Source of the DNA: Fragilariopsis cylindrus CCMP1102
Taxonomy: Eukaryota > Bacillariophyta > Bacillariophyceae > Bacillariales > Bacillariaceae
Direction of reading: 5' to 3'
Length of the DNA stretch: 64,000 nucleotides
Assembly (NCBI GenBank): GCA_900095095.1
Contig: FMBT01000350.1
Coordinates: forward strand, 124,001-188,000
Positions 17,975 through 54,162 of this stretch are shown here, in pieces. Below the pieces are notes generated by a model, which did not search any database, had not been told where the DNA came from, and saw only the letters and a list, made by a program, of their open reading frames with translations. The position numbers and the translations under genes were made by a program. Position 1 is the stretch's first letter; the number at the start of each line of letters is the position of its first letter.

Positions 17975-19958
17975 ATGGTGTTTCAAAAACTGCAGTTTTT
18001 CGGGATTGCGACGGTGCTTTCTGCTTCCTTAACTTATGGTTTTCTCAACGATGTTTCTACGATAAAATATTTAGCTATCAAGGAACAATCATCATCACAT
18101 ACCATTCATTGCCGTCGTTACAAAAGTTCACGTAAAACATTCCAATACGATCATCTTTGGCTGCCGAAATAGGTGTCGGAATTGATCTTGGAACGACTAA
18201 TTCTGCTATAGCCTTTCTGAACGAAAATAACGAGCCCCGAATAATAGAAATCCCTAACAACGGAAGAACGATGAAATCTGTTGTTGCATTTGACAGCAAA
18301 TACAACGACAACGGCAACGATGACAGTATCAACTTTTCTATGCACTTGTTGGTGATGAAGCCATCGAATGGGAACAACAACACGAAGAGAATGTATATCG
18401 GCATGTCAAGCGAGTTATTGGAACCAGTATCAATCACATTACAAAAGAAACGAAAGCAGTCGTTCCTCATTTGGTACTTGCTGATGACACCGATGATGAC
18501 TATGATTATGATAGTAATAGCAAAAATAAGGGCAAAAAGACTCGCTACAGTCAAAAGAAGAAGAAAAAGAAGGCTTCCTTGGAGAAAATATTAAAAGATG
18601 CCGATGCTTTTCCTACCAGGCTGTATTCTTTAAACGAAAGCAGTCCAGACAAAAATGAACCATCGTATATTTCACCTGAGTATATCTCTTCATGTATTCT
18701 ACAAAGACTCCTGATGGTTGCATCCGAGCATACCGGTAATACCATCACTAGAGCAGTAATTGGTGTTCCTGCTTACTTTAACGATGCACAGAGAGATGCG
18801 ACTGTACGTGCTGCCAATGCCTGTGGTATTGAAAAGGTCAAATTGTTACGTGAACCTGAGGCCGCTGCCTTGGCCTACGGTGTTGATAAGGATTCGGATG
18901 AGGAAGAAGAATTAGTTCTAGTTTTTGATCTAGGAGGTGGTACATATGATGTTAGCGTATTAATGGTAGAGAAGGGACTGACAGAAATTGTGTGCACTTC
19001 AGGAAATTCACAACTAGGAGGAACGAATTTTGATGCCAAAATTGCTCAACATGTATCGAAACTAGTAGACGGATGTTGCAAAACAGAAGAATCAACCGGA
19101 ATGATACTAAGAGCTGCTGAATTGATACGGATCTATCTTAGCAATAATCGTATAGCGCATCTTGCATTGCCCTTAACAGAGGAGGGTTGGCTAGAACTTC
19201 AAGAGGTGAGAGACGTGATTGTAACACCACCAGCTACAGCTGAAGATGATACGACGACAGGTAGTAGCAACTCGACACATATTTTCCATGAAATTAGTCG
19301 TAAGGATATGGAACGAATTTGTGCCAAAGAATTTCAGGATCTTATTCGACCGATTCGTGAAGTTGCAATCATGGCGGGAGCTTTACTACCAGGAGATACA
19401 AGACCGAGTATCGCTGAATCTGCAATCAAAATGGATTTAGATGCAAAGCAATTTTATGATGATGATGACGACGACGATAACGATGACGACAAGGCTAATG
19501 ATGACGAGAGTGTCGTTGTTGACATTCGATCAGCAAAAAAGATGCAGCAAAATGGACGAAAGAAAGCAAGACAAGTAGCTAAGCAAGAAAGAAAATATCG
19601 AGAAGAATCTCGTAAGGTGCAAGATAGACTACCAGATGAAAAAGTTCGAGCTGATGGTATATCAGGTCGTCCAATATCTCGGATTGTTTTGGTTGGTGGT
19701 GCGACTCGGATGCCAACAATAGGTCGAATCATATCATCACTCACGGGAGTTGTTCCGCAAAGGACTGTTGATCCCGATGAGGCTGTTGCTTTAGGTTGCG
19801 CTGTACACGTAGGTGTACTGGACGGAGATGAAGAAGCTGGTGTTGTTTTGAACCCAATGAAAGCCGCTCTACTTCGAGCTGTGATTGATAAGGAAAGAAG
19901 AGAAGGTGGACTATCTGAATTGTTCGACGAGGAAGAAGAATTTAATAGATCATTGTAG
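17975..19958 (+). CDS. Hsp70-family ATPase lacking the substrate-binding domain, two apparent frameshifts
   Basis: Reads in three successive frames, each step equal to one missing base: 17975 to about 18150 (hydrophobic leader [18 protein letters not shown]), about 18157-18340 ([16 protein letters not shown], phosphate-1 motif), and about 18342-19958 ([26 protein letters not shown] phosphate-2, [11 protein letters not shown] adenosine motif). The protein ends about 70 residues after the adenosine motif, so no peptide-binding domain follows, as in HSPA13/STCH-type proteins. Lys-rich (about 18553) and Asp-rich (about 19456-19507) inserts interrupt the ATPase fold. The leader suggests entry into the secretory or plastid route. 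Whether the breaks are real is unknown; the conserved residues on both sides argue for sequence errors. Confidence 0.8.
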
Positions 19959-26809: not shown

Positions 26810-29611
26810 GTCGACACAACAACCTAGCTACTACGACGATGGCCGCACGCACTACGAACAGAAGTCATAGTAACAACAGCAATGACGACGATAATCCCTT
26901 CTGTTTATTATGCAGTCACAACAATACCTCTGTTAGAATTCACCATCCATGGTGCTCTAAGAATCCGCAACGTGATACGGGAAAGGTAGACGAGCTCTTG
27001 AACCGTATCAAACACGGTGTAAAGAAGTTACAGTGTAATGCCTGTCAAACGGAATATCAAACGGGGAAGCAGGTTATCACAAATAATACAAGTAAAAAAA
27101 TAAACAACAACGCCAATGACGGTACTACTATGGTGAGACACAATCAAGCATGTTTGATATACCAGAAACAACTCCGCAATGTACGACGGCAACGAGAAAA
27201 AGAGGAGGAGGAGAGGGTGAGGAGTTAGAAGAAGAACCCAAAAAAGCTCGAACGATGAAGAAGAAGAGACGCGTTTCTACCACAGCAACAGTTACGTCAT
27301 CACAAAGTCGTAAAAGTAACGAAGAAGAAGATGACGACGACGACGACGAAGATGACAGATCAGTGTTCGAACCGGCTACGAAGAAAACCCGTCGAATGCA
27401 AGCTTTGACTTTTTCCAGAAAATCTTACAACAAGCAGACAGTAGCAGCAGCGACTGCAAATGATAATGATAGCAGTAATGATAATCATGATTCTCGAGTC
27501 AAACCAAGATGGGTTCCTCTTTCGGATGACGAACAAGACCCTGGGGTGAAGAAGGCTGGCAAATAGAAGACAGTTTATTGTATGGACCTCAACGTGGTAC
27601 CGGGCATTTAGTATCAAATAATCGGTACGCAATGAATCCATTCGAGATCGGCTCGAACTATCATCGTACACATGGTACGCCAGAAAAAGGACTAAGTATC
27701 CTCGGTCTTACCAGAGATCCTCTTGGGAAATTCCCATGGGGTTTCGTAGTGACTCGTCACGAGCTCGGTTGGGCATGTATCGTTGAAACCGTCCATCAGA
27801 ACACTCCTGCATCAGCAGCAACGTTCGTGGGAGTACCATCGAACGATAAAGATTTCTCCTCGAGTGCATCATTGAATATCAATGATATGATAATGATGAT
27901 CAATGGGAAAATCGTTGGAGGTATGAGCGAAGTGGAATTCAATTTGGAACTTGAAATGAATTCCCCCAACCTGATCTTAGGTATATCGAAATACAAGCAT
28001 GCTCAAACAGTGGAACGAAATTTTACAATTCTCGAACAGCAACTCTTACACCATCAAGACTCTGTCGCCCGTGATAACCGTATGATTGGATGGCAAGAAA
28101 TAGGCACTGGATCTGTTCCAACAGCACCAGTCAGGACACCGTTGTTGGCAGAACGTAGGATCGAAGATGTTTCTCTCACGACTCAGGATGAATTTGGTTC
28201 GGATGATGCTGTTGACAATGATGATGAAGCTATAGCCACTAATACTGATCCTGATGATGAAGTTGCTGATATGACCTCTCAACAACAATCCAAGGCTAGC
28301 TGTACGTTATCATCTAATGTTGCTGTGGACGATGAAGCTGCTGATATTAGTAGTGACAATGATAGTGACGAATCTGTAGCTACTGCAACAAGTCCCGATT
28401 TTGTGCCACCTCAATCATCAAAACAAGTTGCTCAAAAATCGAAACGTTCCAGAGCCATCTCAGCACTTGCTCCACATTGCGGCGAAGGTAAACATTGGGC
28501 CGTACTGCGCGATGATAACAATCACGATGATGGCGATAACCATGATTGCACCATACGAAAACGGAGTAAGAGATTACGTAGCGGCAAAGTTGCTTTTTCA
28601 TCAAAACAAGTTGCTCAAGAATCGAAACGCTCCAGAGCCATCTCAGCACTTGCTTCATATTGCGGCGAAAGTAAACATTGGGCCGTACTGCGCGATGATA
28701 ACAATCACGATGATGGCGATAACCATGATTGCACCATACGAAAACGGAGTAAGAGATTACGTAGCGGCAAAGTTGCTTTTTACTGTTACTGTGGGAGAAA
28801 TGTTGCAAATGAATACGGACTTAAAATTGATCAAGCGAATAATAGGTGTACGACTTTGGCATCAGCATCGGCAGCTGCTGGTAAGGTCAAGGCCAAGAAT
28901 GGAAGTGAGGATGACGACAACAACAACGACATCAGTAGCAACACACGAGTTTTTAATTGTACCTGCGGAAGAACTTTTGATGACGAATTAGGCCTTAAGA
29001 TTGAGCAATTTTTTTCATCAGCATCGGCAGCTGCTTATAAGGTCAAGGCCAGTAATGAATGCGAGAATGACGACAACAGTATCAGTAGCAATAGATTTGT
29101 TTTTGACTGTGTATGTGGAAGAACTTTTGATAATGAAAAAGGCTTTAAGATTCATCAGACAAGAATGAGGTGTACGACTTTGGTATCATCAAAATTGGTA
29201 CCAACAATATATACAGCTGCTCGTAAGGTCAAGGCCAACAATAAAGGTGAGAATGACGACAACAGCATCAGTAGCAACAGATGTGTTTTTGACTGTGTAT
29301 GTGGAAGAACTTTCGATAATGGAAAAGGCTTTAAGATTCATCAGACAAGAATGAGGTGTACGACTTTGGCATCATCAAAATCGGCACCAACAATAAATAA
29401 TGAAAGCGATGACAATGGCAACAGTCACAGCAAAAAGCAAGCTGCATCATCAAAAAAGAAAGCAAAGAACTCAAGGAAGAAGAAGAATACAAACAACCCC
29501 GATGACGCTTTCAAATCTGAAGAGTACAGTTTTTTTTACTGTCCAACGTTGATACTTGTATCCGGGGGAAGGACCTATAAACAAGTCCTAGGGTCATATG
29601 CATTGGAGTGA
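26810..29611 (+). CDS. PDZ-domain protein with repeated CxC-H-C zinc-finger-like units
   Basis: Probably the downstream part of the 25163 gene. From 26839, two Cys/His clusters occur (FCLLCSHNN...HHPWC; LQCNACQTEY...RHNQACLIYQ). One missing base in the GAG run near 27210 leads to GEELEEEPKKARTM, and another near 27541 leads to PWGEEGWQIEDSLLYGPQ. A PDZ fold follows at about 27700-28010 (WGFVVTRHELGWACIVETV, then INDMIMMINGKIVGG). After an acidic linker come a duplicated 61-codon block and four C-x-C-G-R-x-F-x4-G-(L/F)-K-I units, the last two complete with His and Cys (FDCVCGRTFDNEKGFKIHQT). Such GLKIHQ fingers occur in retroelement and DNA-binding ORFs. Basic C-terminus. The 27578 frame starts with TTG, so it is not a separate gene. 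Confidence 0.6.
28415..28780 (+). repeat. 183-bp in-frame tandem duplication
   Basis: 28415-28597 and 28598-28780 are nearly identical, with only a handful of substitutions (61 codons each, SSKQVAQ(K/E)SKRSRAISAL onward). It lies inside the PDZ/zinc-finger ORF and keeps the frame, so the duplication is young. Confidence 0.93.
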
Positions 29612-51168: not shown

Positions 51169-53236
51169 TTAATATCGGGCAAAACTTGAATGATTTGTTT
51201 TTAAATTTAAATCCTTCTCATTTTTCAAGAATGTAAACTTTTGATCGTTGATGGATATTAACTGCCGGTTGGATTCCACCCAATCTTCCATTGATGCGAT
51301 GCTCCATTGTGACGATAGACTATGTTGAACGCACCAATTACAGCTGTAATCGGTATTTTCTTGCAGGCTTTCACCCATTACTGTCATTTTCCTATCTTCT
51401 TCTTCTGCTTTTGCATCTACGGTCGTTGTTATGTTAGTTGGTAGTTCAGTTTGAATTCTCCCGGCATATAGGATGCCAACCAAATACCCCAGTGGGCATG
51501 TTTGCCTTGTAACTTGCTAGGAAGTTTTGTTCGAGGATTCGAATCATATGGAAGGATCCATAGACCACCATGTCGTAAGGTGGAATCAATTTCTTCTATT
51601 GCCAAGGAACACACTTCTCTCGTACGAACGGCAAAGTTACCACCACCACCAACAGCGACAAGTTGATCCTCCAACAATTCTCTCAAATGTTCGACATCGA
51701 ACATTTCACCGTCTTGCGTGTAACCACGCACTTGAGCATCGACTAATAATGATAACGACGGAGCTGTTGATTCTTTATGTCGATTAGTATAGAGCACATC
51801 ATTTTTGGTGTTATTATATTTCGTGTTGTGAAAACTACTTCTCTGTTTGTCGTTATTGTTGTAAACGCCGTCATCAGCACAATATTGCTTTTCATCAATA
51901 TCACCATCACCAACAATATCTTTTTGTTGTTGTCGTTGAGATTGTTGTGACAGGTGATAAAAATCTCCTACCATCCGTATGGCAGTCAATCCGCACGATG
52001 GACCGATTTGTTGCTGCCATGGAACATGATTGTTCCACCGATAGGACCATTTCCAATCATTATTCTTATATATATCCATTACTTTGTCAGTTGTTGTTGT
52101 TGGTGGTAGTGTAGAAGTTGTGATGAATGGAACATTTTGATGACGATAATCCACAATGAATTTTTCCATTTGATCTATTCGATCTTGTTTCGAGATATTG
52201 ATAGATGATTCACAAAAATCGATGAGTCGTTTTCGTAACCAAACATCATCCTCGACGGGTTCGTCCTGCTGGAGTGACGAATTGTTTTCATTATTATGAG
52301 TCTTGTTCTTCCTATTATTATTATTATCATTATCTTTTGGGCGTGATGACAACAGCATCACAGTTTCTATTTTCTTTTTACCGTGATGATTATTATATCC
52401 TTTCATCGTAGACACATTATTACTAGTAGTAGTATTATTGCCGTTAGAAGCAATTTCGGTTTGTTTGTTCCGAACAGTATTATTACTTGCGTTGTTTGTC
52501 TCATCGACCGTACTATTGTCGGTAGTAGTAGTACCAATACGACGGCATCGTCGTTGAAGGATACCTTCAAGAGTTTGTACGCTAGTTGCGGTCAATTTCT
52601 TTAAACATGGTCGTTGTAAGCTTACTCTGTTCCGACTAAGTAGATAACCAATTCGTTCATAAAATGGTACAGTATTAATTTTACACCATAGATATATAAA
52701 ATGATATTGACACCCCAGTCGTTCCTTCGATGTTACTCACGTTCTAATAGACACATTATTAATTTCCCATATCCCTTTCCACGATATATTGGATCGATAA
52801 GTATGTACGTGGCAGCTGCGGCATTCCCTCCGGCTGTTTCGTAACATTCTGTAGTCTTCCATGACCCAAAACAAGTGCTGATTTTGTCGTATCATCATCC
52901 CTCATCCTCATCATCATCCTCATCATTATGTGACGACTGTGAAGATTGTCGTCCTTCGTCTATCAAAATGTAGCTACATGCTAGACTGTAGCGGGGATAT
53001 GATTGATTATCATGATGGACAATGAATTTTTGTAATAATCCGTACTATCTTCATCTTCATCTTCATCTTTATCCTCGTCGACATTCTTGACTTCATCCTC
53101 TTGTTGTCTAGGCCATTGTTCCTGGAGTAATTGAGCAGCTTTCTTGACCCAAGAAGATACAACTCTGTGAGATGACGATGACGATGACGATGTCGATGAC
53201 GATGACAATGACAATGACGAGGATCGTTCTGGTATT
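51169..53236 (-). CDS. Fusion of NAA80-type GNAT N-acetyltransferase and ACTMAP-type actin maturation protease
   Basis: N-terminal half (about 53236-52600) reads as a GNAT: VKKAAQLLQEQWPRQ (compare the start of NAA80), VLGHGRLQ, YILIDPIYRGKGYGKLIMCL (acetyl-CoA loop, about 52761-52810), KINTVPFYERIGY. The same frame continues without stop through an Asn/Thr linker into an ACTMAP-type protease: QQIGPSCGLTAIRM (catalytic Cys codon 51993-51995), ARGYTQDGEMFDVEHLREL-like block, GGLWILPYD, KHAHWGI (His codon 51492-51494), CVQHSLSSQWSIASMEDW, SNRQLISI. In animals ACTMAP trims the actin N-terminus and NAA80 acetylates the new one. About five one-base steps occur, at about 53015, 52890-52900, 52850, 52736 and 51482-51487. 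The start codon is not resolved; no intron is needed at the fusion joint. Confidence 0.78.
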
Positions 53237-54162
53237 ATCTTATGTTATCGTCGTCATCATTGCTTTCTTGTTGTTAATATAATTGGTTTTTGGAACATCA
53301 TCATCATCATCATCATGTACGTGACGATAGAAGACTCGAACTAGAGAAATATCGTCGATCTTTTGAACAACTTGCGAAGCCAACAGCAGCATTCTTCGTC
53401 ATTAACCGAGAACAAGAAAAGTCCAATCGGAAGTGACAGATACGGAAAGATCTTTGTGCAAGCTTTTCAAGTTACACTCTATTGTCATATTGAAATTATG
53501 AGCCTCACTACAATATTCATCGTTGCTTTATCATAGAGATAGCTAATACTACTAGATCTGATATTTAAAATTTAAATAGCTACTAGTATTCGCTCTGATG
53601 TTCAAAATGTACAGTACATAATGTAGTGTCGTATGTCATAGTCGTATTTTCCAAATTTTTTACCTCACGTCCGTCCGTCGCTCTAACTATTTTGAGAATT
53701 AAACAGAAATTGGTATTTTAATCAAGAATCATAAATAATAGCTATTCTAAGAAAGATGTGATAGATGAAGCTAATGATTTTGTCTACATTAATTATCCCG
53801 ACTGCTTAATATAGTAGGAACTAACTAACAAACTAGGATAAAAGATGCGAATACTAGAAATTCATTTATTTTTCGGATATAATACAAAATTAATAATTAT
53901 ACAAGTAAATAATTTAAACAACAAAAGAGCATCTGTGTGTATGTATATAATAGAGGAAACTACAAGTGCCCCGAGCTCCCTAACGTGACCGGTATTAGTT
54001 GGACGAATAACCCGGTAAATATGCATATAAGAAATAATATGAATATGAATCATACAGTCAACAAAACCCCCATCGAAACTGTAACACCAAGTACTAACTA
54101 ACACCCCCATTGGGTGGACATCATCATCATACGGTACGTGAATTCATCGTGTTTCCTTTTTT
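53237..54162. other. Spacer with TCA/ATC trinucleotide runs
   Basis: ATC runs at about 53298-53317 may belong to the N-terminus of the fusion gene. From about 53420 on, AT-rich sequence without coding character. Confidence 0.4.

Follow-up and report, generated by a model that had tools for sequence, protein, structure and literature searches.

On the minus strand of the diatom DNA analysed here, a stretch of 64,000 nucleotides from Fragilariopsis cylindrus that we call the window, we find a gene in which a GNAT acetyltransferase resembling NAA80 is followed by a protease resembling ACTMAP. Judged from the sequences of its relatives, this joining, in diatoms, of two known enzymes from the same pathway is real and conserved, and the joined gene is widespread. 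We put at roughly three in four the probability that a single polypeptide of this kind, identified from sequence and structure modelling, unites an NAA80-type acetyltransferase with an ACTMAP-type protease and would finish actin by the route proposed below. The gene starts at an ATG at 53392, further upstream than the limit of 53236 given in a preliminary description of the locus, and its parts are as follows.

51169..53392, minus strand: fused gene in full, the NAA80-like GNAT preceding the ACTMAP-like protease, with eight frame changes in the assembly (frame-aware alignment to P0001)
53264..53392, minus strand: N-terminal piece MLLLASQVVQKIDDISLVRVFYRHVH (three-frame translation and alignment to P0001)
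52984..53244, minus strand: GNAT piece carrying helix 1 and, at 53107-53118, QWPR of the WPR motif (translation, profile alignment)
52898..53029, minus strand: GNAT piece with YSLACSYILIDEG at 52952-52990 (translation and alignment to P0001)
52762..52959, minus strand: open piece with the GNAT strand VLGHGR at 52855-52872 (translation and alignment to P0001)
52736..52891, minus strand: GNAT piece with the acetyl-CoA motif RGKGYG at 52766-52783 (translation, Pfam)
51432..52736, minus strand: longest open piece, 435 codons, holding the GNAT end, the beta6-beta7 loop, beta7 and the protease (PF21646)
52644-52670, minus strand: VPFYERIGY, GNAT end, in piece 51432..52736
52224-52250, minus strand: beta7, DDVWLRKRL, in piece 51432..52736
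51987-52004, minus strand: GPSCGL, protease, in piece 51432..52736
51699-51725, minus strand: GYTQDGEMF, protease, in piece 51432..52736
51543-51557, minus strand: ILPYD, protease, in piece 51432..52736
51486-51503, minus strand: KHAHWG, protease, in piece 51432..52736
51172..51516, minus strand: C-terminal protease piece with CVQHSLSSQW at 51304-51333 and SNRQL at 51259-51273 (translation)

Three-frame translation of the minus strand recovers every motif quoted in the preliminary description and distributes them over three frames. MLLLASQ and RGKGYGKL (52760-52783) share one frame; AAQLLQEQWPR and VLGHGR share a second, to which the C-terminal piece (51172-51516) returns; and VPFYERIGY through KHAHWG form an uninterrupted third (51432-52736). 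The claim that the acetyltransferase runs into the protease in one frame without a stop holds from VPFYERIGY onward and fails upstream of it, where RGKGYGKL lies in another frame, separated from VPFYERIGY by a frame change as well as a TAA. Taken alone, piece 52736..52891 matches PF13508 (E 0.003) and PF00583 (E 0.0085), both below cut-off, and the C-terminal piece 51172..51516 has no Pfam match. Elsewhere in the window, an open frame of 677 aa on the plus strand (27578-29611) contains near-identical internal repeats, KHWAVLRDDNNHDDGDN, together with several zinc-finger-like units of the form CxCGRxFDxExGxKIxQ.

The closest relative, P0001, is a predicted protein from a public contig and is known as protein sequence, not as DNA; a protein search matches it to the window's open piece with 913 bits and 93% identity, a similarity well outside what chance would give, as is the PF21646 match described below. 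Frame-aware alignment places the whole of P0001 on the window collinearly and without an intron-sized gap, through eight frame changes (seven net losses and one net gain), and 692 of 719 aligned residues are identical (96%), with the eight break positions and 21 gap columns uncounted. Because the alignment is collinear, we reject introns as an explanation for the frame changes. An intron beginning at the GTGAGT that follows LLER was also rejected by eye: the only AGs between it and VPFYERIGY come no more than about 20 bases later, too close to act as an acceptor.

With its eight frame breaks, the window copy in its sequenced form does not encode a whole enzyme. We consider the breaks to be probably indel errors of the assembly, and likelier errors than decay, because other genes show similar breaks. 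Two of these lie in the window, and we take the motifs at their breaks to be those of an AQR helicase and of HSP70. The gene of the AQR-type, intron-binding helicase (Pfam; minus strand, 1501-1544) changes frame close to its end, inside a conserved motif: VVAVSRA gives way to RLGLYVFC with one base of overlap, which suggests residual indel errors in the assembly. The HSP70-like gene (plus strand, 18316-18368) changes from SINF to ALVGDEAIE between 18336 and 18342, 5 bases apart. Neither break leaves room for an intron. Among near-identical actin copies elsewhere in the assembly, C223 and C366 differ by 9 gaps and 12 mismatches in 1080 coding bases, and C223 and C97 by 3 gaps and 6 mismatches in the 1080; the contig pair L001/L002 shows 27 gap openings against 22 mismatches, with many of the gaps outside the coding part. 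For these reasons we think it improbable that the window copy is a decayed pseudogene, the fusion being real in relatives and lost in this species or allele, although eight frame changes do crowd into about 2.2 kb and seven of the eight are net losses. Errors are also not uniform: the window holds long open frames (1263 codons of AQR, 511 codons of a P450), and over 3312 bases the contigs of the pair L003/L004 show just one gap opening between them. The copy further carries three substitutions where P0001, P0002 and P0003 agree (MVGDFYH for MVRDFYY, DAQVRG for DAQERG). Against decay stand the 692 residues still matching P0001 and the fact that the locus would be the sole ACTMAP copy found in the genome: it is the only ACTMAP match there and the only match to P0001. 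Neither a DNA-level search, whose other matches are short repeat stretches, nor the P0001 search found a second allele.

That the two halves belong to one protein is best seen in relatives. P0001, P0002 and P0003 are predicted, unbroken, as proteins of 732, 711 and 744 aa. We pooled 102 distinct relatives from three protein searches. The first used the window's open piece (protease and GNAT end) as query on candidates of 239 to 761 aa, and because of this query and size range stand-alone proteases could have appeared in it; the other two used fused-profile queries, which favour fusions, and in each of them scoring was limited to the candidates with the most words in common. In the first search, 48 of 56 relatives carry a GNAT Pfam domain and PF21646. 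Over the whole pool, 74 of 102 relatives hold at least 70% of both half-profiles, in keeping with the proposal that both enzymes form one protein. At least part of the GNAT profile is matched by 97 of the 102, and the remaining five begin without Met, as cut-off predictions do, so that half-by-half profile scoring of these 102 relatives yields no demonstrable stand-alone protease and the halves are nowhere demonstrably separate. One transcript translation labelled complete, P0100, holds 80% of the GNAT profile and only 16% of the protease profile. No animal protein is among the named matches, and the counts speak only for the neighbourhood reached. A transcript across the junction, as the fusion claim implied, exists for relatives, in the MMETSP translations P0014 (615 aa) and P0058 (536 aa), which are labelled complete, span the junction and hold both halves; the window's own frame is broken.

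The named sources are Pseudo-nitzschia multistriata, Cylindrotheca fusiformis and Epithemia clementina, all three of class Bacillariophyceae, with Nitzschia sp. Nitz4 and a Bacillariaceae MAG. In a midpoint-rooted tree of 94 of the 102 relatives we observed groups of 53, 24 and 9 rows, and the group of 53 contains both MMETSP rows and every named diatom. The EukProt translation P0087, which holds both halves, lies near the base of the tree, a position that depends on the midpoint root; its header style resembles, we presume, that of choanoflagellate transcriptomes. In P0089 and P0098 a PDZ domain interrupts the protease half at a point lying between its Cys and its His region, and P0102 is a very distant protein of 342 aa (31% identity) with the order GNAT, KRL strand, protease, which may be a non-diatom fusion. 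P0087, P0089, P0098 and P0102 keep the domain order, and the fusion may reach beyond diatoms. Distances of the GNAT and protease halves correlate across 80 proteins (r 0.81), as would be expected from joint inheritance, and two unfused genes inherited together could give the same value. Database labels each cover one half, P0020 being called 'Actin maturation protease' and other relatives 'GNAT superfamily N-acetyltransferase'.

For the GNAT half, the solved structures that come out on top, both by profile search and by fold comparison, are human and fly NAA80, which places it nearest to NAA80, as had been claimed, and not in an unrelated family; on sequence and model we regard it as NAA80-like. 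The GNAT fold is present with its acetyl-CoA motif, the last Gly of which is found in 90 of 90 relatives. PMC10318143 describes W105, R107 and R112 of human NAA80 as contacting the actin N-terminus, and the WPR motif aligns with the stretch that holds W105 and R107. The W105 equivalent is W in all 78 relatives with a residue there and the R107 equivalent is R in 57 of 78; the R112 position is R in one of 75 aligned relatives, or in four of 78 if counted without gaps. The fused protein might be intact and yet have a substrate other than actin, or only one half might act on actin, other N-termini being served instead. Fold and family leave the substrate unfixed, and the missing R112 equivalent and the variable R107 equivalent favour such a reading. 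We judge it rather unlikely, given that NAA80 comes first by sequence and fold, that the W105 equivalent is invariant, that the GNAT domain is joined to a protease of the actin-maturation family, and that the actin start of this genome, MSDDED, fits.

The protease half is ACTMAP-like by sequence, its link to animal ACTMAP running through PF21646 and not through direct sequence comparison. The open piece 51432..52736 matches this model with an E value of 3.6e-16 and 60.1 bits against a curated cut-off of 27, and all 39 members of set A1 match it at E up to 0.001. The structure model has a papain-like fold, relatives share an invariant Cys, His, Asp and Gln, and S, N and Q of the SNxQL motif are found in 90 of 90; together with the PF21646 match, these features uphold the assignment to the ACTMAP family. 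Conservation suggests which residues of this half are catalytic; in human ACTMAP, PMC13367750 gives C132 as the nucleophile. Searched by sequence against solved structures, the open piece has a single match, a ribosomal protein at E 2.6, and a profile search of solved structures (E up to 1) places the best-matching stretches, among the 60 rows listed, almost entirely in the GNAT part. Bacteria offer a precedent for the pairing, since papain-like DUF3335 members are described as often fused to GNAT domains (PMC10318531), and the diatom protein could in principle be an unrelated peptide-tailoring enzyme of that type acquired by diatoms. We find this very hard to credit: among 11 diverse members, every one matches PF21646 and none matches PF11814 even at E up to 1, and when bacterial and archaeal genomes were scanned with two peptide patterns, not one of the 50 candidates was confirmed. 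A pattern scan of viral contigs for relatives likewise gave 51 matches, none confirmed.

The last GNAT strand, beta7 (DVWLRKRL, model residues 233-240), aligns with the end of NAA80, and the first protease helix of the structure model begins about ten residues later. The whole NAA80 domain is therefore followed almost at once by the protease, with no long linker in between. This strand has D, K, R and L in 90 of 90 relatives. The beta6-beta7 loop has a median length of 59.5 residues (range 26 to 124), and none of the 90 fusions has a run of at least four prolines in it. According to PMC7864067, the polyproline of human NAA80 binds profilin 2, and the animals compared that have a long NAA80 loop all carry polyproline there; insects have none. 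Because polyproline is thus not a defining feature, we keep the fusion as NAA80-like despite its absence. Many diatoms are reported to be without profilin (PMC11420354, citing Aumeier 2015), so that the fusion opens to test whether maturation works without profilin. A PF00235 (profilin) search of the genome gave no match, and the control genomes were equally silent, so that nothing follows from it.

Animal class II actins begin with Met, one small residue and then acidic residues. Nine copies of the first actin exon are found in the genome, of which six read MSDDEDIAALVVDNGSG, with the start MSDDED, and three are frame-disturbed there; the start resembles that of animal class II actins, with Ser in place of Cys. 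The actin copies L029, L030, L031, L026, L027 and L028 (contigs C223, C366 and C97) are near-identical, with MSDDED in C97 and a frame-disturbed start in C223 and C366; for the copy on C366, the match to the Pfam actin model falls into several short pieces. N-termini of this kind undergo Met removal and Ser acetylation during translation. From the MSDDED start, we infer that the likely route is Met removal, Ser acetylation, Ac-Ser removal and Asp acetylation. Nascent actin would lose Met and be acetylated on Ser while still being translated. The protease half, acting like ACTMAP, would then take off Ac-Ser and expose Asp, and the GNAT half of that molecule, acting like NAA80, would acetylate this Asp. 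The fusion would make the two activities equally abundant at a single site of actin docking, and may replace profilin, which in many animals brings actin to NAA80. Actin as substrate, the order of steps, the hand-over and independence from profilin are all proposals, as is Ac-Ser cleavage, Ac-Ser being no demonstrated ACTMAP substrate. A further idea, that the fusion is a profilin-free actin maturation enzyme of possibly older arrangement and that animal ACTMAP and NAA80 are split halves of an early-eukaryote fusion, is possible, if doubtful.

Two-step actin finishing is presented as an animal speciality in PMC10318143 and PMC11465159, and the former agrees with the earlier statement that animals use separate ACTMAP and NAA80 enzymes. 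The diatom fusion suggests that two-step finishing is not confined to animals. The joining of the genes would be independent evidence that both enzymes serve one pathway, and it offers a single protein in which to study hand-over between the two steps. In the open literature searched, diatoms are a lineage without a described actin-finishing pathway; a description of an NAA80-ACTMAP fusion was not found there, most subscription journals lying outside the search.

Three known systems can be set beside the fusion. Bacterial GNAT-DUF3335 proteins, known to us from their description in PMC10318531, resemble it in having a GNAT beside a papain-like domain in one chain, and differ in that the fusion matches no DUF3335 model and has no confirmed bacterial or archaeal sequence relative. 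NAA80 (NatH, NAT6), which PMC7790372 treats as a NAT group of its own, in a main text where the words diatom and stramenopile do not occur, shares the GNAT fold, the best profile and structure match, the WPR of the alpha1-alpha2 loop, the acetyl-CoA motif and a long beta6-beta7 loop. The fused GNAT differs in its attached C-terminal protease, a loop without polyproline and the missing R112 equivalent, and in being found in diatoms, whereas NAA80 is described in animals in the literature covered. ACTMAP (C19orf54) shares the PF21646 match above cut-off, the papain-like fold and the invariant Cys, His, Asp and Gln; unlike ACTMAP, the fusion carries an NAA80-like domain ahead of the protease in the same chain and would likely cleave Ac-Ser rather than Ac-Met or Ac-Cys.
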